This document shows, piece by piece, positions 11,089 to 39,596 of a stretch of 64,000 nt of DNA (position 1 is the stretch's first letter; each line of letters opens with the position of its first letter). The stretch is from contig CP107049.1 of the NCBI GenBank assembly GCA_025736915.1, positions 1,550,001 through 1,614,000 of the forward strand. The letters run 5' to 3'. Both the position numbers and the translations under genes were made by a program. Under the pieces are notes generated by a model. It was not told where the DNA came from. It saw nothing but the letters and a program-made list of their open reading frames with translations, and did no database searches. This DNA comes from Acinetobacter nosocomialis. Lineage in GTDB: Bacteria > Pseudomonadota > Gammaproteobacteria > Pseudomonadales > Moraxellaceae.

Positions 11089-11830
11089 TTAACGGTCGAA
11101 TTTACGACGTGGTTTGTCATCAAAACTGCGACGTGGGCGATCTTCACCACCGAAGCTACGTTTTGGACGATCTTCACCACCAAACGATGGACGTTCACCA
11201 CGTGGTTTATCATCAAAGCTACGACGTGGCTTATCGCTGAAACCGCCTTCACGACGTGGACGATCTGAGTTGAACTCACGACGTGGACGATCTTCGCCAC
11301 CAAATGACGGACGCTCACCACGTGGCTTGTCATCAAAACTACGACGTGGACGATCTTCACCACCGAAGCTACGTTTTGGACGATCACCAAAACCGCTTTC
11401 ACGACGTGGTTTATAATCTACACGGTTACCACGGTTATCATCATTCGAGTCAAAACGCGGTTTATCATTGAAACCACCTTCACGACGCGGACGGTCTGAG
11501 TTGAACTCACGACGTGGACGATCTTCAAAACCGCCTTCGCGACGTGGACGGTCTTCAAAACCACCTTCACGACGTGGACGATCTGAATTAAACTCACGAC
11601 GCGGACGATCTTCGCCACCAAATGGACGATCACCACGTGGCTTGTCATCAAAGCTACGACGTGGACGGTCATCACGACCACCTTCACGACGTTTGAAGTT
11701 GCTTTCGCCTTCGAAACGACGACCACCGCCAAAACCGCCACCACGACGACCATCACGGCCACCGCCGTTGCCGCCACGACCACGACCACCACCATCACGA
11801 CCTGAACGAGCAGGAGGTGGAGATGGCTCT
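11089..11830 (-). repeat. In-gene tandem/interspersed repeats encoding the helicase RG tail
   Basis: Degenerate units recur many times, for example the nucleotide core CACGACGTGGACGATCTTC and variants. They encode DRPRR separated by EFNS, EGGF, SFGGE or SFDDKPRG. Some longer blocks are nearly identical over tens of bases. Units are not evenly spaced, which fits protein low-complexity expansion by slippage or recombination, not a DNA array. Confidence 0.85.
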
Positions 11831-12984
11831 AAGCCTTCAATTTCAGAAACGCTTAAACGAGCTTCTAAGTATTCTTCAAGTGCACGAATCTTACCGCGTT
11901 CACGATAAGTCGCTAGAGTAATCGCTTGACCTGTACGACCAGCACGACCTGTACGACCAATACGGTGTACGTAGTCTTCGTGCTTCATCGGAAGACCAAA
12001 GTTAATTACGTGAGAAATAGTCGGTACGTCAAGACCACGAGCAGCAACGTCAGTTGCAACTAAGATCTTCGCACGACCTTCACGGATACTACGTAAACGA
12101 CGGTTACGAACCGTTTGTGGCATCGCACCGTGAAGTGCAACAACTGAATGACCTGCTTCTGCAAGTTCTTCAGCCAACATATCAGTGTCTTCTTGAGTGC
12201 TTGCAAAAACTACAGCTTGATCTAAGTTTTCATCACTTAACCAATGAGTAAGTAATTTTTTCTTGTGCTCAAAGCCATCAGTCCAATGCAATGTTTGCGT
12301 AATATCTGTATTGGTTGAATGACCAGTTTCAATTGCGATACGCATTGGATCTTTCATCATGCATGCTGCAAGACGAATAATACGATCAGCAAATGTTGCA
12401 GAGAACATTAATGTTTGTTTACGGTTAGCCGCTAATTCGCTAATTGCTTCTAAGTCTTCAGAGAAGCCTAGGTCAAGCATACGGTCCGCTTCATCAACGA
12501 TTAAAGCATCTACTTGGTCTAATTTAATTTGACGACGGTTTACCAAGTCAAGTAAACGACCCGGTGTTGCAACAACAACTTGCGCGCCTTTTAACTGTTG
12601 AATTTGTTTAGCAAATGGCATACCACCCATAATTGCAGCAATACGAACACCTTTCATGTGACGTACAAATGCAATTGCATCTTGGCTTACTTGTTGAGCT
12701 AATTCACGAGTAGGAGAAATAACCAAAATATTTGGTTGAGTTACTGCTTTCATGCGTTCTTTGAACGGAACGAAAGTTTCTTGACCAGCCAAGTTATTTA
12801 ATGTCGGCAATAAGAAAGCTGCAGTTTTACCAGAACCAGTCTGGCTAGAAACTAAAAGGTCTTTACCTTCTAAAGCTGCAGGAATAGATTGTTCTTGCAC
12901 AGGAGTCGGGGTAGTAAAACCTAAACCTTCAAGCGCTTGTTGTAAGGTTTCATGCAAAGAAAATTCGGCAAAAGTTTTGCTCAT
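11089..12984 (-). CDS. DEAD-box ATP-dependent RNA helicase with RG-rich repetitive tail
   Basis: A 631-residue RNA helicase. The core shows the Q motif (TPTPVQEQSIP), motif I SSQTGSGKT (residues 46-54), PTRELA, DEAD near residue 165, SAT, and motif VI HRIGRTGRAGR. After about residue 400 it becomes a glycine-rich stretch and then some 200 residues of repeats built on DRPRR, EGGF, SFGGEDRPRR and SFDDKPRG. Such basic, disordered tails bind RNA and target helicases to ribosome assembly or RNA decay. The overall design is RhlE/DeaD-like; I do not assign a symbol. The ATG at 12984 is chosen because the upstream residues are not helicase-like and AGGGTG precedes it. Confidence 0.92.
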   Translation of the reverse strand: MSKTFAEFSLHETLQQALEGLGFTTPTPVQEQSIPAALEGKDLLVSSQTGSGKTAAFLLPTLNNLAGQETFVPFKERMKAVTQPNILVISPTRELAQQVSQDAIAFVRHMKGVRIAAIMGGMPFAKQIQQLKGAQVVVATPGRLLDLVNRRQIKLDQVDALIVDEADRMLDLGFSEDLEAISELAANRKQTLMFSATFADRIIRLAACMMKDPMRIAIETGHSTNTDITQTLHWTDGFEHKKKLLTHWLSDENLDQAVVFASTQEDTDMLAEELAEAGHSVVALHGAMPQTVRNRRLRSIREGRAKILVATDVAARGLDVPTISHVINFGLPMKHEDYVHRIGRTGRAGRTGQAITLATYRERGKIRALEEYLEARLSVSEIEGLEPSPPPARSGRDGGGRGRGGNGGGRDGRRGGGFGGGRRFEGESNFKRREGGRDDRPRRSFDDKPRGDRPFGGEDRPRREFNSDRPRREGGFEDRPRREGGFEDRPRREFNSDRPRREGGFNDKPRFDSNDDNRGNRVDYKPRRESGFGDRPKRSFGGEDRPRRSFDDKPRGERPSFGGEDRPRREFNSDRPRREGGFSDKPRRSFDDKPRGERPSFGGEDRPKRSFGGEDRPRRSFDDKPRRKFDR

Positions 12985-13249
12985 AGAGAGTTTCACCCTA
13001 ATGGGTGCTCCATTTTTAATAAGTACAAAATAGACATCGGCACAAAGCGGCAAAGCAAAATTAGCTGAACCTTATTATTCAGCGGCAATCCGAGTAACGA
13101 CGATGTGGATTAAACGCACGCTTGATTACGGCCGAACCTGAAGAATCGCTGAGCGATCGGGGCGCAAGAAATGGTCCTCTCTATGGACAGCGTGCGCTTA
13201 CAATGAATAGAACAGAATGTTCAGGTAATGAACGGAAATTTAAGTGCGT
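12985..13249 (-). promoter_or_regulatory. Long structured 5' leader of the DEAD-box helicase gene
   Basis: About 265 bases lie between a good promoter and the helicase ATG with no plausible upstream gene. The leader holds pairing elements. CGCACGCT (13115-13122) is complementary to AGCGTGCG (13189-13196), enclosing hairpins ATCGC-TGA-GCGAT (13145-13157) and GTCC/GGAC (13174-13188), a three-way-junction-like fold. DEAD-box cold-shock helicases often have long regulated leaders. Function here is inference. Confidence 0.5.
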
Positions 13250-28830: not shown

Positions 28831-29256
28831 ATGCTTCAATATAACAAAAAAATGATTATTCACGCACTTGCGCTTGCACCCATACCATTGCTGAGTTTAT
28901 CTGCCTTAGGGGTCATAATATTAAATGCTGAGTTCAACCTTTATTCGATTGGAGTTATTTTTCTAGCCCACTTCTTATTTTATTTACTTTTTTATGGCCT
29001 TCTGGTTATTCCCTTTGCATATATCATTTCCTATTTTCTTGCTCGTAAAAATCGTTTAAATCTGATGAGTATTTTCATCAGCGCAACTGCGATATGGATT
29101 TTGATTAGCCCGATTGCACGTTTGTTTTTTGTCGGGTCATTCCCGTCTCCTTGGTGGAATATTTATAAGATTTACAGTTTTTATCTCATGATTTTATTTA
29201 CCGGCTTTTGCTACTGGTTAAGCTTGAAATGGCTAAGCCGAAAACAAATAGGCTAA
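28831..29256 (+). CDS. Uncharacterised inner-membrane protein, 141 residues
   Basis: Four predicted membrane helices: residues about 10-30, 38-66, 84-104 and 112-132. Basic residues (ARKNRLN, LSRKQIG) lie in cytoplasmic loops or ends. No recognised motif. It ends 89 bases before glyQ on the same strand, and I see no terminator in that gap, so read-through is possible. Family unknown. Confidence 0.65.
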   Translation: MLQYNKKMIIHALALAPIPLLSLSALGVIILNAEFNLYSIGVIFLAHFLFYLLFYGLLVIPFAYIISYFLARKNRLNLMSIFISATAIWILISPIARLFFVGSFPSPWWNIYKIYSFYLMILFTGFCYWLSLKWLSRKQIG

Positions 29257-29345
29257 TCGCGTATTCATTTGATTAAGCCTTTGCCACTCTCCTACAAAAT
29301 CCTTATACTTAGGGGCAATTTTTCTCATAAATTCGTGGATGCTAC

Positions 29346-30323
29346 ATGAGTCGCGCCATCTCGCATATTGATACATTTCAGGGCTTAATTCTTGCCCTAC
29401 AAAACTACTGGGCCGAACAAGGCTGCGTCGTATTACAACCTTACGACATGGAAATGGGCGCTGGAACATTCCACACCGCAACATTCTTACGTGCTTTAGG
29501 GCCTGAGACTTGGAACGCGGCATACGTTCAACCTTCACGTCGTCCAAAAGATGGCCGTTATGGTGAAAACCCGAACCGTTTGCAACACTACTACCAGTTC
29601 CAAGTGGTACTTAAGCCAAATCCAGACAACATCCAACAGCTTTATCTCGATTCTTTAAAAGCAATCGGGATTGATACACTTACTCACGACATCCGTTTCG
29701 TAGAAGACAACTGGGAATCTCCAACTCTTGGTGCTTGGGGCTTAGGTTGGGAAGTTTGGCTTAACGGTATGGAAGTAACTCAGTTCACTTACTTCCAACA
29801 AGTCGGTGGTGTTGAATGTTACCCAGTAACAGGTGAAATCACTTACGGTTTAGAACGTCTTGCGATGTACCTTCAAGGTGTTGACTCGGTTTATGACCTA
29901 GTTTGGACCAAAGGCCAATTCGGTACCGTGACTTACGGTGACGTATTCCATCAAAATGAAGTTGAGCAATCGACTTATAACTTTGAATACGCTCCAGTTG
30001 AAAAATTATTTGAACTGTTTGATTTTTACGAGTCAGAAGCAAACCGTTTAATTGAAGCAAAACTTTCTCTTCCTGCTTATGAGCAAGTGGTTAAAGCGTC
30101 TCATACCTTTAACTTACTTGATGCACGTGGCGCAATTTCTGTGACTGAGCGTCAACGTTACATTTTACGTGTACGTACTTTGGCGCGTGCTATTGCACAA
30201 AGTTATGTACAAGCACGTGCAGAGCTTGGCTTCCCAATGGCAGAACCACACTTACGTGATGAAGTATTGGCACAGCTAAAAGCACAAGCTGAAAGTGAAG
30301 CAGCAAAGGCGGAGAAAAACTAA
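29346..30323 (+). CDS. glyQ: Glycine--tRNA ligase alpha subunit
   Basis: The catalytic subunit of the tetrameric (alpha2beta2) bacterial glycyl-tRNA synthetase. The start [22 protein letters not shown] and the class II motifs [33 protein letters not shown] are unmistakable. [23 protein letters not shown] is motif 3. Length is 325 residues. The stop overlaps the glyS start (TAATG), so the subunits are made in equal amounts. Confidence 0.97.
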
Positions 30324-32392
30324 TGAGCAAACATACTGTTTTATTCGAACTTGGCTGTGAAGAGCTTCCACCAAAAAGCTTAAAAACGTTACGTGATGCA
30401 CTACAAGCAGAAACGGTAAAAGGCTTAAATGAAGCTGGTTTAAACTTCGCATCTGTTGAAGCTTATGCTGCTCCACGTCGTTTAGCCCTTAAAATTGTAG
30501 ATGTAGATGCTGCACAAGCTGATACACAAAAACGTTTTGACGGCCCTGCTGTTCAAGCAGCTTACGATGCAGAAGGCAAACCAACTAAAGCACTTGAAGG
30601 CTTTATGCGTGGTCAAGGCATTACAGTTGATCAGCTTTCTACTTTCCAAGCAGGTAAAGTTGAAAAAGTTTGCTATCTAAAAGATGTAAAAGGTCAAAGC
30701 CTTGACGCTTTACTTCCACAGATTTTACAAACTGCATTAGACAATTTACCAATTGCTAAGCGTATGCGTTCTGCTGCAAGCCGTACCGAGTTTGTACGTC
30801 CAGTGAAATGGGTTCTTTTACTCAAAGACGACCAAATTGTTGACGCAACTATTCAAGATCATAAAGCTGGCAATGTGACTTATGGTCACCGCTTCCATGC
30901 ACCTGAAGCAGTGACTTTAGCGCATGCAAATGATTACTTAGCTGCCTTAGAAAAAGCTTACGTTGTTGCGAACTTTGAAAAGCGTCAAGCAACTATTCAA
31001 GAACAAGTGAAAAAGTTAGCTGATGAAGTGAACGCAACTGCGATTGTTCCAGCTGACTTACTTGATGAAGTAACAAGCCTCGTTGAATGGCCTGTAGCTT
31101 TACGTGCAACTTTTGAAGAACGCTACTTAGCTGTTCCTCAAGAAGCTCTTATTACGACAATGCAAGACAACCAGAAGTATTTCTGTTTGATCAATGCAGA
31201 AGGTAAATTACAGCCTTACTTCATTACTGTTTCAAATATTGAGTCTAAAGACCCGACTCAAATTATTGAAGGTAACGAAAAGGTTGTACGTCCTCGTTTG
31301 TCTGATGCTGAGTTCTTCTTCTTACAAGATCAAAAACAACCGCTTGCATCTCGTAAAGAAAAACTAGCAAACATGGTATTCCAAGCACAACTTGGTACGC
31401 TTTGGGACAAATCAACACGTATTGCAAAACTTGCTGTTGCATTATCATCAATCACTGGTGCAAACCCAGCAGATGCTGAAAAAGCTGCATTACTTGCTAA
31501 ATGTGACTTAACCTCTGAGCTTGTTGGTGAATTCCCAGAACTTCAAGGTATTGCGGGTACTTACTACGCGCGTATTGAAGGTGAAAACACTGAAGTTTCT
31601 GAAGCTTTAGGTGAGCAATATTTACCAAAATTTGCGGGTGATGTTTTACCTAAAACCAAAACAGGTACAACCATTGCCCTTGCTGACCGTTTAGATACCC
31701 TAGTTGGTATTTTCGGTATTGGACAAGCGCCAACGGGTTCTAAAGACCCATTTGCTCTTCGTCGTTCAGCAATTGGTATCTTACGTTTAATCATTGAAAA
31801 TGAGCTAGACGTAACAATTGAAGAGTTAGTTAATCTTGCACTTCAGGGTTATGGCGACATCGTTAAAGACCACGACAAAACTCGCGCTGATGCCGTTGCA
31901 TTCTTGGAAGGTCGTTACCGTGCTAAGTACGAAGACCAAGGCGTTGCCGTTGATGTGCTTCAAGCAGTTCAAGCACTTGCACCAAAATCTCCACTTGATT
32001 TTGACAAGCGTGTAAATGCTGTTAACCACTTCCGCACATTACCTGAAGCTGCTGCACTTGCTGCTGCAAACAAACGTGTTGCCAATATTCTTGCAAAAGA
32101 AGCAGCCCCAGAAGGTTCTGTAGTTGAAGCGAACTTGGTTGAAGATGCTGAAAAAGCATTATTTGCTGAGCTTCAAGCAGTGACTCCTGCGGTTGAACCA
32201 TTACTTGCAGCAAAAGACTACACGGCTGCCCTTTCTAAGCTTGCGGCACTTCGCGCGCCGATTGATGCATTCTTTGATGGCGTAATGGTAATGGCAGATG
32301 ATGCTGACCTGAAGGCAAACCGTTTACGTTTATTGGCTCAGTTGCGTAACTTGTTTACTGCTGTGGCTGATGTGAGTGTGTTGCAAGGCTAA
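30323..32392 (+). CDS. glyS: Glycine--tRNA ligase beta subunit
   Basis: The 689-residue beta subunit that recognises and binds tRNA-Gly. It begins [17 protein letters not shown] and has the typical [10 protein letters not shown] segment; the HD-like region and the C-terminal anticodon-binding domain ([17 protein letters not shown]) are intact. It directly overlaps glyQ. Its last 155 bases are duplicated 738 bases downstream as a decayed copy (see the pseudogene entry). Confidence 0.97.
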
Positions 32393-32418
32393 GCCTTAAT
32401 TGGTTGTAAATTAATGAG

Positions 32419-32446
32419 AACCCCTCTATAAATTAGTGGGGTTTTT
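32419..32446 (+). terminator. glyQS terminator
   Basis: The stem AACCCC/GGGGTT (arms 32419-32424 and 32437-32442) is followed by a T run. Confidence 0.75.
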
Positions 32447-32477
32447 TAATATTAAGAATAAATCAGCAGTTATCATA

Positions 32478-32951
32478 ATGAATACCACTTCAATTAAAAA
32501 GTTTTACCGTATAGATGCTTACCTTGTTCTTTGCCACATCCTTTTGATGGCATTCGGTTATGGTCTATGGAAGCTATATCCTCATATAAAGACCAAACCA
32601 GATATGAGCGGCCTGTTCTTTATGATTATCTCTATTCTAGGCGGTTTCGCAGGGCTGATTATGCTCGCTATAACTTTGCCTCGTTTAGATCGTTCTGTTC
32701 ATAATTTATCAGTGAACAAATTTATTTTGGCTCTGCTGTATTGGGTTTCTAGTAGCATTATTTTCGTACTATTTGGCATCAGTAAATTCTTCTTCAATAA
32801 TCCGCTAGTTTTGCTGGTTTTTGTTTTGGTTTTTTTCAGCAGTGTTTATCTTTCGGTGATTCGCCTTGCAGATATGCGTCAAAAAGACTGGTTGATCTTA
32901 AGCGGAATTTTTGGAGCTATTGTGCTGTTCTTCTTTTTGCCAGAGCTTTAG
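32478..32951 (+). CDS. Uncharacterised four-helix membrane protein, 157 residues
   Basis: Hydrophobic segments lie near residues 12-32, 42-65, 78-100 and 105-125, with a final segment near 140-155. It starts at the ATG at 32478 ([18 protein letters not shown]); the longer frame from 32436 would overlap the glyS terminator. Ile/Phe-rich composition resembles DUF805-type small proteins, but I do not assign a family. The gene sits between glyS and a decayed copy of the glyS 3' end, so it was probably brought in by the event that made that duplication. Confidence 0.65.
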
Positions 32952-32975
32952 AAAATGGTTTAAGTAAAGATGCTG

Positions 32976-33130
32976 AGCTTGCAGCACTTCGCCCACCGAT
33001 TGATGCATTCTTTGATGGTGTAATGGTAATGGCAGATGATGCTGACCTGAAGGCAAACCGTTTACGTTTATTAGTTTAGTTACGTAACTTGTTTACTGCT
33101 GTGGCTGATGTGAGTGTGTTGCAAGGCTAA
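32976..33130 (+). pseudogene. Decayed copy of the glyS 3' end
   Basis: These 155 bases align without gaps to the last 155 bases of glyS (32238-32392), offset 738 bases, with 8 differences by eye. One difference converts CAG to the stop TAG at 33077-33079. The frame further upstream reads [20 protein letters not shown], so similarity may continue faintly. No start codon or ribosome site precedes it; it is a remnant without expected product. Confidence 0.92.
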
Positions 33131-33143
33131 TTAGCTCATTATT

Positions 33144-33178
33144 AATAAAGGGATCTTCTATAGATCCCTTTATTTTTT
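33144..33178. terminator. Terminator after the glyS remnant
   Basis: AATAAAGGGATCT pairs with the complementary arm ending at 33174, followed by TTTTT. It lies between converging genes. Confidence 0.82.
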
Positions 33179-33181
33179 ACG

Positions 33182-33466
33182 TTAAACAAATTCTTTAATT
33201 TCTTCTAAACTTTTCGATGGCTCAAACCACATAAAATCATAATCAGCTATATCATGAATATAAAACGGATCATTTTTCATGATTTCTTCAGCTTCTTGAA
33301 TCGAAGAGCTTAGAACTAAAATCACCCCACCCACTCTATTTTCTCGGCGCCCTGAGGCCAGAAATTTCTTCTGCTCATAGTAATGATCTAAAAAAGCAAT
33401 ATGCTCTTTGAGTACAGCATCAACTTCGGCTAATGGTTTTTTATAGGTTAAGGTAACAACAATCAT
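33182..33466 (-). CDS. YciI family protein
   Basis: A 94-residue protein with the YciI-like ferredoxin fold. It begins MIVVTLTYKKPLAEVDAVLKEHIAFLDHYYE (conserved His22), contains the FLASGRREN turn, GGVILVLSSS, and the conserved Asp in NDPFYIHDIADYDF. These proteins are small enzymes or dehalogenase-like fragments of unknown specificity. It lies downstream of the EamA gene on the same strand with a 67-base gap. Confidence 0.8.
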   Translation of the reverse strand: MIVVTLTYKKPLAEVDAVLKEHIAFLDHYYEQKKFLASGRRENRVGGVILVLSSSIQEAEEIMKNDPFYIHDIADYDFMWFEPSKSLEEIKEFV

Positions 33467-33533
33467 CTCATTCTCTTAAAGCAAATAGCGCATGACTTAG
33501 CATTAATCTACAGATAGTTTAATGATCTATAGA

Positions 33534-34436
33534 TTATTCGATAGTACGCCTATTCCCCCAATTCATCCACACCAAACTCCCCACAATAATCACTCCACCC
33601 AGCAGCACCATCATTGATGGTTTTTCATTTAAGAAAAGTACCGCCAAACTCATCGCGACAATCGGCGAACAATATAAAAAATTCGATGCAATCGTTAACG
33701 GCATATTTTTAAGTACATAGCCCCAAAGTACATATGCCATTGCACTTGGAAAAATACCCAATAAGACAACCGACATATTGGCTTGCCAAGTGGCATGTAA
33801 AATTTCACTAGGCAAATGGGCACTATAAAATAGTAAAGGAATGGTCCCGAACCAGATGATGTAACACATCATGCTCAAGGCATCATAATTTAAAGCAAAT
33901 TTCTTATATAAATTAAAATAAAGTCCCCATGCAATTGCAGCTAAAACAATTAATAAACTATAAGGGCTCGGTACACCAAAACCATGATCTCCACTAACCA
34001 CCAACACGGCGCCGCAAAGACCGAGCAAAATACATAACCATTGTTTGAAACTAATTTTTTCCTTAAAAAGCAAAGCTGAAATAATAAAAGTAAATAACGG
34101 AATAGATTGACTCAAAATACTAGATGCGACTGCACTTACATATTGCTGCCCTGTATTTATAAGCAAATGATGCAGAGTTACAGAGAAAAAACCTAATACA
34201 GCAAGTGCAGGGACATCTTTCCACTTTAAAGGTTGAATGCCTTTTTTCATGACCAAAAGCAGTAAAAAAAACGATGCAATCAAAAAGCGGAGCAAGGCAA
34301 TATGCTGTGGTGTATATGAATGCAAAGCACTATGTACACCAATAGGTGAATAGCCCCAACAAAAGACAGTCACAGCAATACATAAATAGAGCTTAAATGC
34401 GGGAGGCTGGGTTTCGGCAGCAAGAGAAATTGCCAT
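33534..34436 (-). CDS. EamA/DMT family inner-membrane transporter
   Basis: A 300-residue protein with two five-helix EamA repeats (about residues 15-145 and 160-295), typical of drug/metabolite exporters. The first begins AVTVFCWGYSPIGVHSALHSYTP and includes YVSAVASSILSQSIPLFTFIISALLFKEKI. The second includes LGIFPSAMAYVLWGYVLKNMP. The substrate is unknown. It is divergent from a LysR regulator gene, an arrangement in which the regulator often controls the transporter. Confidence 0.85.
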   Translation of the reverse strand: MAISLAAETQPPAFKLYLCIAVTVFCWGYSPIGVHSALHSYTPQHIALLRFLIASFFLLLLVMKKGIQPLKWKDVPALAVLGFFSVTLHHLLINTGQQYVSAVASSILSQSIPLFTFIISALLFKEKISFKQWLCILLGLCGAVLVVSGDHGFGVPSPYSLLIVLAAIAWGLYFNLYKKFALNYDALSMMCYIIWFGTIPLLFYSAHLPSEILHATWQANMSVVLLGIFPSAMAYVLWGYVLKNMPLTIASNFLYCSPIVAMSLAVLFLNEKPSMMVLLGGVIIVGSLVWMNWGNRRTIE

Positions 34437-34544
34437 GTTAAATCTGCACTAGTGAAATGGAACACTTTCATCATATGCGCATGGATAGTTGAATAAAATT
34501 AACTTATATTGAGTCAAATATTCATTAAAAGTGAATGATAAAAC

Positions 34545-35411
34545 ATGGATATCGCACAGTTAAAAATGTTTCAGACCGTGGTTGAATGCGGCACCATGGC
34601 TAAGGCATCAATGCAACTACATTGTGTACCCTCCAATATCACAACGCGTATTAAACAACTTGAAGAAGAACTAGGGGCACCGCTGTTTTATCGTGAAGGA
34701 AAAAGCTTAAAGCTCACGCCATCTGGAGAAATCTTCCTTAATTATTGCCATAAAATTTTAGCACTCTGTGACGAAGCCAAGCGAAGTATTCACCCTAATG
34801 CACCGCCCTCTGGCCCATTAAAAATTGGAGCTATTGAATCGTCTGCCACAACTCGCCTACCCAATTTACTTGCGAAATATCATCAACGTTATCCAGAAGT
34901 TTCCATTCAAATTATTACTGGCACATGGAAACAGCTATTAGTCGATATTTCTCAGCACAAACTTGATGGTGCAATTGTCGCGGGCAATATCGAGTTTCCT
35001 ATGCTGAATAAACTCAGTATTTATCAAGAAGACATGGTCCTAATTGCGTCCCACTCTTTGGGTGAAATTCATTGCCAAGAAGATCTGATTGGTAAAGAAA
35101 TTTTTATGTGGACTGAAGGCTGCCCTTACCGTGCAGCTCTCGAAGATTGGCTTAAACTCAAGAATATTTCGCTTCCCATCACTAGCATTACCAGTTATGC
35201 CACCATTATTGGTTGCGTCAGTGCGGGTTCTGGTGTGGCTTTAGTCCCTAAAAGTATTTATGAACAATATAAAAATTTAGCGCATATTCAGAGTTATAAG
35301 TTTGAACATCTTGCCTTTATGCAAAATCACTTTTTCTGGCATAAAAATGTGAGCAACCACAAAGCAAGAGATACATTTATAGAGTTAATTAAGTCCGAAT
35401 TTTATTTATGA
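34545..35411 (+). CDS. LysR family transcriptional regulator
   Basis: The N-terminal winged helix, MDIAQLKMFQTVVECGTMAKASMQLHCVPSNITTRIKQLEEELG, is the LysR DNA-binding domain, with the hinge LPLF-type sequence read as APLFYREGKSLKLTPSG. The rest (residues about 90-288) is the effector-binding fold. Length is standard at 288. It probably regulates the divergent EamA exporter and itself from the 108-base intergenic region (inference). The inducer is unknown. Confidence 0.9.
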   Translation: MDIAQLKMFQTVVECGTMAKASMQLHCVPSNITTRIKQLEEELGAPLFYREGKSLKLTPSGEIFLNYCHKILALCDEAKRSIHPNAPPSGPLKIGAIESSATTRLPNLLAKYHQRYPEVSIQIITGTWKQLLVDISQHKLDGAIVAGNIEFPMLNKLSIYQEDMVLIASHSLGEIHCQEDLIGKEIFMWTEGCPYRAALEDWLKLKNISLPITSITSYATIIGCVSAGSGVALVPKSIYEQYKNLAHIQSYKFEHLAFMQNHFFWHKNVSNHKARDTFIELIKSEFYL

Positions 35412-38283: not shown

Positions 38284-38861
38284 TTAAGATCTCTGTTTTT
38301 TTGTTTATAGACATCTATATTTATTTTTGATTATTCGAAATAAGGCGCTATTTCTTTAGATATATTTCATGTGAAATTTCTATTTCTTGAAATATATAAA
38401 CATGAGAAAAGCTAAAACACCTTTTCCCGAATAAGCAAAAATACAGTTCTGCCCTGTACGTTTATATTTCTGGCAGAAGATGGTTCAAAAAAGCGCCAAA
38501 AAGCACCCTATTCTCATAATAAGCAATAACTATGCCGTTAACTCCAATAAAAAATGAAAAAAGAATCATCTTTAGAGATATAGAAAAATGGTTATGTTGA
38601 ATGCTTTTAATTGTTTTTATTTCAGAGAACAAAAAGAGAGAAAATATTTTGCTGGTTTTAAATCATAAAATATCGATATCTATTTCACTTTATTATTAAT
38701 ATTTTTCTTTCTCCACAATTTCTCCCTTATGTGTTTATTGACTGTAATGCTGTTGTAACGTTTTGATGAAGGTGATTCCCAAGCGAATCAAGATTTGACT
38801 ATGATGCGATTGCGTTTATGAAATACCTCACTAAAGGGTATATTCTTTGAAGGATATCGCA
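38284..38861. other. Intergenic region with several inverted repeats
   Basis: No gene seen in 578 bases. Inverted repeats include TATATTTCA/TGAAATATA (38361-38369 and 38388-38396), TTCTGCC/GGCAGAA (38447-38453 and 38472-38478) and TGATTC/GAATCA (38772-38789). The last lies just upstream of a promoter-like pair for the 38862 gene. These could be operators or terminators. Confidence 0.4.
38795..38822 (+). promoter_or_regulatory. Possible promoter for the 38862 gene
   Basis: TTGACT (38795-38800) and TATGAA (38817-38822) lie 16 bases apart on the plus strand. The gene's ATG is about 40 bases downstream. Confidence 0.4.
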
Positions 38862-39596
38862 ATGAAAATGATGAAAACAGCTATCGTGACTGCAAGTGTT
38901 CTTGCTTCTGCCTCTATTTTTGCACAAAGTGCGGGCGTTAATGCAGGTGCCTCTGCCCAAGTTAATGTACAACCAGGTGGACTTGTTAGTGGCGTAGCCA
39001 ATACAGTCAAAAATACTGCTCACACTGTAGGCCATACTGCAAAACATGCTGGTCATGTAGCGGCTGACACTACAGTTAAAGCAACTAAAAAAACAACAGG
39101 TAAAGTGACTGAACTTTCTTCTGATGCTGTAACAGGCACTAAACATTTTGCTACCGAAGCAGCAACAGGAACAAAAAATTTAGCGACTAAAGCCGCAACG
39201 GGTACTAAAAACTTAGCAGTTGAAGCTAAAGCTGATACAAAAGCACATCTTGATGCAGTAAAAACTAAAGTTGCAGAAAAACAGGCCGACCAAAAAGAAT
39301 TTACTGCTGAAAAACAAGCTGATGCTCAAGCACGTGTAGATGCGGTTAAAGCCCGCGTAGCTCAAAACCAAGCAGAGCAAAAAGAATTTGTTGCTGGCAC
39401 TAAAGCAGATGCTCAAGCACAATTAAATGCAGCTCAACCAGCTCATGCAGTTAACGCTCAAACAGGTGTAAACGTTGGTGTTAATGTTGCACCAGTTGGA
39501 ATTAGTGCAAATGCAAACGTAAATGCAGGGGCTCAAGGTTCTACACAAAAAACTGAAAAGAAATCTTTCGTTAAAGGTCTTCTCGGTACTAACTAA
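38862..39596 (+). CDS. Secreted Ala/Lys-rich repetitive helical protein, 244 residues
   Basis: A signal peptide (ending ASIFA) precedes a low-complexity protein. Repeats include ATGTKNLATKAATGTKNL (twice) and the paired KADTKAHLDAVKTKVAEKQADQKEF / KQADAQARVDAVKARVAQNQAEQKEF, giving an 11-residue-like helical periodicity reminiscent of LEA proteins. The C-terminal third is Asn/Val-rich. AAGGA 7 bases upstream supports the ATG at 38862 rather than the in-frame TTG at 38847. It is paralogous in style to the 35558 protein. Function unknown. Confidence 0.75.
   Translation: MKMMKTAIVTASVLASASIFAQSAGVNAGASAQVNVQPGGLVSGVANTVKNTAHTVGHTAKHAGHVAADTTVKATKKTTGKVTELSSDAVTGTKHFATEAATGTKNLATKAATGTKNLAVEAKADTKAHLDAVKTKVAEKQADQKEFTAEKQADAQARVDAVKARVAQNQAEQKEFVAGTKADAQAQLNAAQPAHAVNAQTGVNVGVNVAPVGISANANVNAGAQGSTQKTEKKSFVKGLLGTN

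Follow-up and report, generated by a model that had tools for sequence, protein, structure and literature searches.

The window, by which we mean the whole 64,000-nt stretch of Acinetobacter nosocomialis DNA analyzed here, contains an intact gene for the glycyl-tRNA synthetase beta subunit, glyS, whose 3′ end recurs downstream of the gene (Table 1). A repeat search returned the two copies as a 158-nt pair (32235-32392 and 32973-33130) with 94% identity, and comparison of the two column by column gave nine differences over the 158 nt. As a first-pass annotation of this DNA had described, the last 155 bases of glyS are repeated 738 bases further on with eight differences and an internal stop, which we located as a TAG in the glyS frame at 33077-33079. 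The sequence and the list of open reading frames also bear out what that annotation had placed between the copies, namely the glyS terminator hairpin and a single ORF, a membrane-protein gene that we refer to as MP. The annotation had further read the frame upstream of the strict repeat as weakly glyS-like, which is doubtful. In the window, a tblastn match does run on for ~43 nt to the left of the repeat, but in A. lactucae it stops at the repeat edge, and the bases that separate the MP stop codon from the repeat did not align convincingly to glyS.

Table 1. Features of the glyS region, in coordinates of the window
Feature	Coordinates	Strand	Basis
glyS, glycyl-tRNA synthetase beta subunit, intact	30323..32392	+	ORF of 689 aa; Pfam tRNA_synt_2f (2.2e-201) and DALR_1
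glyS 3′ end, upstream copy (in use; read as islet-borne)	32235..32392	+	Repeat
Segment with glyS terminator (hairpin ~32419-32447) and MP leader, read as islet-borne	32393..32477	+	Read off the sequence
MP, predicted membrane protein, 157 aa, no known family	32478..32951	+	ORF, ATG start
Joint from MP to the glyS-end copy, read as islet-borne	32952..32981	+	Alignment; islets of A. lactucae and A. tandoii have it with small differences
Downstream copy of the glyS 3′ end, read as the displaced native end; pseudogene fragment	32973..33130	+	Repeat; native-like from ~32982
Native post-glyS spacer with terminator-like hairpin (33144-33174)	33131..33181	+	Spacers of relatives; terminator scan
YciI-domain protein, right-hand neighbor of the empty site	33182..33466	-	Pfam YCII (4.1e-12)
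EamA-family transporter, neighbor after YciI	33534..34436	-	Pfam EamA (9.5e-47)

When the window was compared with itself by BLAST, the glyS-end repeat was the strongest direct repeat of at least 60 nt, and all other listed repeats fall within two repetitive ORFs, indicating that the glyS-end repeat is not a product of chance. The strongest of these other repeats stem from a 654-aa ORF on the minus strand (11089-13053), to which we give the label DEAD-box helicase-like and which has a long arginine-rich repeat tail. A 249-aa ORF at 38847-39596, exported-looking, contains an internal 87-nt tandem repeat of ~2.4 units. No Rfam family matched positions 29000-35000 of the window.

The sequences that follow the two glyS ends were compared with the corresponding region of relatives. 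In 5 of 17 close species (genomes G067, G015, G060, G150, and G090), the only glyS end is followed directly by a spacer that is 90-94% identical to the one behind the downstream copy in the window (33131..33181). The next gene is the YciI gene in four of these five species, as in the window; G067 is without YciI and has EamA at this place. Three of the four A. baumannii records examined (VB958, X4-300, and DETAB-P16) are likewise empty, with the same arrangement and one glyS end, and A. baumannii 2021CK-01407 has a gene for an AbiLi-like ATPase (3.6e-53) and a second gene at the site. Empty and occupied alleles are thus both present among these few A. baumannii strains (four records). As the spacer of the downstream copy follows the sole glyS end in 5 of 17 close species, we read that copy as the native glyS end, displaced but still in place.

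The upstream copy keeps other company. The 70 nt after its stop codon are identical in A. lactucae (NRRL B-41902, genome G044) and A. tandoii (DSM 14970, genome G159), and the 85-nt segment 32393..32477 has a counterpart of 100% identity at the A. lactucae locus and one of 97.6% at that of A. tandoii. Behind the downstream copy, therefore, stands the flank of the empty site, the flank of the upstream copy goes with the islet, and the insert as a whole is enclosed by a long direct repeat that is present in a single copy at empty sites. Base differences between the two ends of the window, tried as a donor test, were not decisive and did not sort donor from native. The glyS ends of the A. baumannii complex are ~90-97% like those of the window, so that base differences alone cannot mark a foreign end here and the flanks carry the argument. 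The collections used yielded no further strain of the species to which the window belongs.

Over the stretch between the glyS stop codon and the last base of MP, identity with the window is 98.9% for A. lactucae and 95.2% for A. tandoii; the glyS bodies of these two species are 95% and 82% like that of the window, respectively. All three loci share the joint behind MP, a few bases aside, and beyond it the glyS-end copies differ. The downstream copy of the window is native-like from ~32982 and ends in the empty-site spacer. The A. lactucae copy is decayed and is followed by a terminator of the type seen behind the intact glyS of genome G007, and the A. tandoii copy takes on its own clade's type close to the stop codon. 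Such variety on the right, with three make-ups sharing one left joint, is difficult to account for other than by recombination inside the glyS-end copy, and these alignments support movement of the islet between Acinetobacter species. In both A. lactucae and genome G066, the displaced end carries the G007 terminator type and has further cargo behind it. The presence of this terminator type behind displaced ends suggests that islets can stack.

We surveyed the glyS regions of 138 genomes which, together with the window's own, gave 139 loci from 175 genomes of the genus; G173, whose region was retrieved in two pieces, and 35 others (7 without a match, 10 listed but passed over, and 18 matched but unlisted) were left out. 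ORFs were counted in 137 of the 139 loci, the other two ending 103 and 240 nt behind glyS with no ORF, and 134 of the 137 reach a conserved gene. In 125 of these 134 loci, an ORF of at least 100 aa lies before the first conserved gene, and these ORFs belong to 97 families. Without EamA and LysR, which are usual neighbors in part of the genus, cargo was found in 120 of 134 loci and comprised 95 families, 60 of them present in one genome only, and some of the ORFs may not be genes. For comparison, a neighboring pair of conserved genes was occupied in 15 of 125 loci, with 13 families. Other neighboring pairs were occupied in 22 of 77 loci (11 families), 7 of 105 (2 families), 1 of 96 (1 family), and 39 of 76 (5 families), and one further pair was occupied in 96 of 96 loci with 4 families because a conserved gene always lies between its members. 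The interval behind glyS measures 240 nt or less in seven loci. A transposase cluster, labeled here as IS30-type, occurs in four loci and lies inside the interval in three of them. The site thus holds different whole-gene cassettes beside the same conserved genes, as hotspots and minimal mobile elements do.

A second glyS end was detected within 9 kb behind glyS in 10 of the 139 genomes (the view being shorter in seven loci that are cut by a contig end), with the weakest matches in G066, G059, and G063; none was detected in the remaining 129 loci. Several occupied loci have a right edge without a glyS end and with a terminator instead (the right edge of G066, one A. baumannii strain, and c27-type loci), and so cargo does not always come with a leftover copy. 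Further hits returned by the glyS query in G067, G106, G032, and, in one instance, G044 were rejected, as each is a 24-nt match to bases 1-24 of the query that lies elsewhere in the genome.

In A. tandoii, the donor end can be recognized directly from the sequence. The body of its glyS is ~92% identical to its nearest relatives and ~80% identical to the A. baumannii complex, whereas the last ~270 nt are 93-99% identical to three species of the complex and 74-90% identical to three species of its own clade. The replaced tract ends within glyS, ~270-315 nt before the end of the gene. The C-terminal peptide, VADVSVLQG, is of the complex type, shared by 21 of 139 genomes, and the downstream copy is of the VADISVLQH type, the glyS ending found in 76 of 139 genomes. 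Because the end of this glyS is complex-like and its body is not, a donor end has replaced the native one in A. tandoii. The two repeat copies of this locus accordingly do not come from one target: the upstream end is complex-like and the downstream end is of its own clade. A comparison of body against tail identified A. tandoii as the strongest glyS chimera among the 139 genomes and returned other pairs with much higher identity in the tail than in the body, for example G131 and G054 (body 82.7%, tail 95.3%). Homologous recombination in the flanking core gene is thus evident both in the A. tandoii chimera and in these further pairs. The first-pass annotation had held that strains with no islet and one glyS end, together with a donor-like match for one of the two ends, would speak for an insertion; the former are the 5 of 17 close species and the three A. 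baumannii records described above, and the latter is seen outright in A. tandoii glyS.

Taken together, we consider it very probable that the window contains one allele of a variable cargo site, and that its islet entered by recombination that replaced the glyS end and left the old end behind. This is in essence what the first-pass annotation had proposed, namely an islet inserted through glyS with a donor end replacing the native one and the old end decaying, and both the flanks and A. tandoii support it. The donor would have been DNA of another Acinetobacter, consisting of a glyS 3′ end, its terminator, MP, and then an older, broken glyS end, and the recipient chromosome would have carried one glyS end followed by the YciI gene. 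A left crossover within glyS would leave the gene whole and give it the donor's end. A right crossover joining the broken glyS end of the donor (~32973-32981) to the native end of the recipient would turn the latter into the downstream copy, which would thereby lose its reading frame.

The most likely mode of exchange is homologous recombination without an integrase, probably after DNA uptake. The first event would presumably have combined homologous recombination at one edge with an illegitimate joint at the other. Homology-facilitated illegitimate recombination, reportedly described in Acinetobacter by de Vries and Wackernagel in 2002, would make such a first joint, with glyS homology on one side and a chance joint on the other, and may have done so at glyS. 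On the right-hand side, an islet could then be bounded either by a chance joint that left a glyS-end scar or by recombination in a scar that the incoming DNA already carried. The second route would need only glyS homology, and the downstream copy may serve as a right-hand homology arm that aids later transfers. The DNA itself may have entered by natural transformation. We found a comEC-family DNA-uptake gene in the genome of the window, and natural transformation is a known trait of Acinetobacter, one that extends to joints formed with one-sided homology, going by titles cited in PMC8116780.

The close similarity of the two copies admits another history, in which the islet came once, long ago, with a decayed end like that of A. 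lactucae, and the downstream copy of the window was later overwritten by the intact glyS end of the same chromosome. Under gene conversion of this kind, one would expect what is seen in part: the copies are 94% alike in the window versus 86% in A. lactucae, and the downstream copy shows rare or unique states at six of the nine sites of difference, a pattern that decay following a conversion would also produce. At -147, however, the downstream copy agrees with the common state of the complex and the state of the upstream copy is unique, and at -111 and -48 the states of both copies are common, so that the downstream copy is not simply a decayed upstream copy. Its flank, moreover, is that of the empty site, which conversion within the repeat would not supply. 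We regard this history as unlikely, while later gene conversion could still account for part of the 94% identity.

Restoring the 3′ end of a gene and leaving a repeat of it behind is typical of integrase-driven elements. All second copies either reach the stop codon or come within ~21 nt of it, which would fit an island that inserted at the glyS end, restored it, and left an attachment repeat, its integrase having been lost or having acted from elsewhere. The left ends of the second copies nevertheless vary from -158 to -63 relative to the gene end and do not mark a fixed crossover point, though decay may have shortened some of them, and the boundary of the replaced tract in A. tandoii does not coincide with the left end of any second copy. 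In none of the 10 second-end genomes did profile searches find a tyrosine recombinase on the glyS contig within ~98 kb of the gene, or a resolvase anywhere on this contig, within the limits set by draft contig ends; the view is most limited in G059, whose glyS begins no more than 4 kb from the end of its contig. Several of these genomes have no tyrosine recombinase anywhere on the glyS contig. No integrase was seen in a phmmer scan of all 139 loci, the sole search covering the other 129 and a weak one that missed distant integrases in its own control. Thus no integrase was found beside the presumed attachment site. Phage records contained no lone glyS end, and the two that matched hold whole glyQ-glyS regions. 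The involvement of an integrase is unlikely, and we consider an integrase-driven island at the glyS end highly improbable.

The alternative named by the first-pass annotation was a local duplication followed by decay. On this view, the glyS end would have been duplicated in tandem in this lineage together with the sequence around it, and MP would have arrived or evolved between the copies. While such a history yields two copies 738 nt apart, one of them decayed, it can hardly be right: the flanks of the copies differ and each occurs alone in other species (the spacer at empty sites and the terminator in A. lactucae and A. tandoii), the same MP joint recurs in three species, a cross-species match that duplication does not explain, and the A. 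tandoii chimera, with ends from different clades, already contradicts it.

We also scanned the cargo of the site for anti-phage genes. By cluster membership, 26 of 137 genomes have strong matches to known or candidate anti-phage systems, a count that derives from scans of cluster representatives covering part of the 95-97 families. It includes G164, where the contig ends within a Gabija locus, and G048, where another ORF interrupts a Pycsar pair, and it leaves out weaker matches (the c68 and c81 ATPases and single matches near 1e-6 to 1e-3). Systems behind glyS comprise retron I-A with PtuA/PtuB-like partners (reverse transcriptase, 2.9e-136), Pycsar (PycC, 2.9e-93), Gabija (GajA, 4e-208), and Avs4 (bit score 2233). 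Also among the cargo are the SLATT partner of a reverse-transcriptase system, RT UG17, OLD, and the families PDC-M43, PDC-M63, PDC-M18, PDC-S11, PDC-S66, PDC-S29, PDC-S31, and PDC-S60. The PDC families of the defense library are ones that we take to be candidates only. Cargo at the site therefore matches known or candidate defense families. Examples of whole systems under the PADLOC models for Avs4, Gabija, and retron I-A are L131:5026-9795, L070:2799-5515, and L059:8826-12047.

At the thresholds used, 31 of the 60 scanned cargo proteins, MP included, had no match in the defense library (4, 5 with MP, 6, 4, 6, and 6 in the successive sets of 10). Some recurrent cargo families of 278-430 aa are without a PADLOC match (L098:8987-9949, L120:8954-9901, L092:2662-3948, L117:2784-3617, and L147:2913-4121). 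Four of these five are also without a Pfam match, and the one in L117 has a weak match to OST-HTH. We consider such recurrent families candidates for defense genes of kinds not yet known, and the glyS site is a practical place to seek them.

MP itself had no match in PADLOC, and hence none to a defense family, and nothing above the cut-off in Pfam; weak matches below it, to EMC6_arch (0.023) and DUF6442 (0.17), were discarded. The gene gave dS and dN of 0.142 and 0.031 against A. tandoii and of 0.619 and 0.086 against G103, with dN/dS in the range 0.14-0.28, and from this substitution pattern it looks like a working gene. Relatives of MP at E ≤ 0.001 are present in 19 of the 175 genus genomes, and 17 of the 19 have them at the glyS site; some are distant, with 22% identity in G174 and 30% in G112. 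Among genomes of named species, MP was found at 11 loci, all in Acinetobacter, and it was found neither in IMG/VR viral contigs nor in plasmid records. The named-species and IMG/VR scans relied on two short peptide patterns that may miss relatives, and the former did miss some. An AlphaFold2 model built from a 14-sequence alignment has five long helices and a mean pLDDT of 62.6, which is too poor for a fold search.

Judging from the company it keeps among the cargo of the site, our best guess, and a doubtful one, is that MP is a membrane defense protein. We also put forward, tentatively and as an idea that may well prove wrong, that the glyS 3′ end acts as a self-renewing landing pad, with each islet bringing its own glyS end and perhaps leaving the old one behind. 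The pair of ends would then make a cassette that can enter any Acinetobacter by homology to a single gene and stack by order of arrival, and MP, found almost only here, would be a new one-gene membrane defense that spreads in this way.

Sites of this kind are known. Oliveira et al. (2017, PMC5635113) described hotspots without mobile elements that are driven by recombination in the flanking core genes and are more common in transformable species. As presented there, these hotspots resemble the glyS site: the cargo next to a core gene varies and includes defense genes, an integrase is lacking, and recombination takes place in the core gene itself. Their model uses two flanking core genes as arms, whereas at glyS a broken copy of the same gene's end seems to be the second arm, and old ends persist at glyS as scars. 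The minimal mobile elements of Neisseria are whole-gene cassettes between two conserved genes that are exchanged by homologous recombination (Snyder et al. 2007 and Saunders and Snyder 2002, as summarized in PMC3082526). The two are alike in their differing whole-gene cassettes and homologous incorporation; by that summary, however, minimal mobile elements are exchanged between strains, whereas the glyS exchange appears to run mainly across species of the genus and involves end replacement and stacking. Insertion with a long target duplication has been proposed for restriction-modification genes of Helicobacter pylori (Nobusato et al. 2000, via PMC4978471), and there, as at the glyS site, a long direct repeat encloses a defense gene unit. 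In that model both repeats would derive from one target, while those at glyS need not, given that A. tandoii has one foreign and one native end.

Our literature search found no paper on the glyS cargo site. The main text of PMC12421847 does not name glyS, and PMC10846281 names it once, for a point mutation; Yi et al. (2025), which by its title concerns Acinetobacter defense hotspots, may already list the site. The glyS site and its end-replacement scars with stacking may be new. On our preferred reading, the legible scars would show how small anti-phage systems are swapped without an integrase, the donor end replacing the end of an essential gene and the cargo riding behind it, and they would record the order of arrival and make the route of exchange testable.

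Several database records with a glyS region appear to be misfiled. Two 240-kb records labeled Acinetobacter phage MD-2021a (L217, CAKLQF020000004.1, and L222, CAKLQH020000003.1) hold glyQ, glyS, and housekeeping neighbors and look like mislabeled bacterial contigs, and both have two genes at the same relative positions as in A. baumannii 2021CK-01407. Three records of 3.7-4.1 Mb filed as A. baumannii plasmids (L214, NZ_CP104448.1; L215, NZ_CP064203.1; and L216, NZ_CP077849.1) contain glyS and are probably chromosomes.
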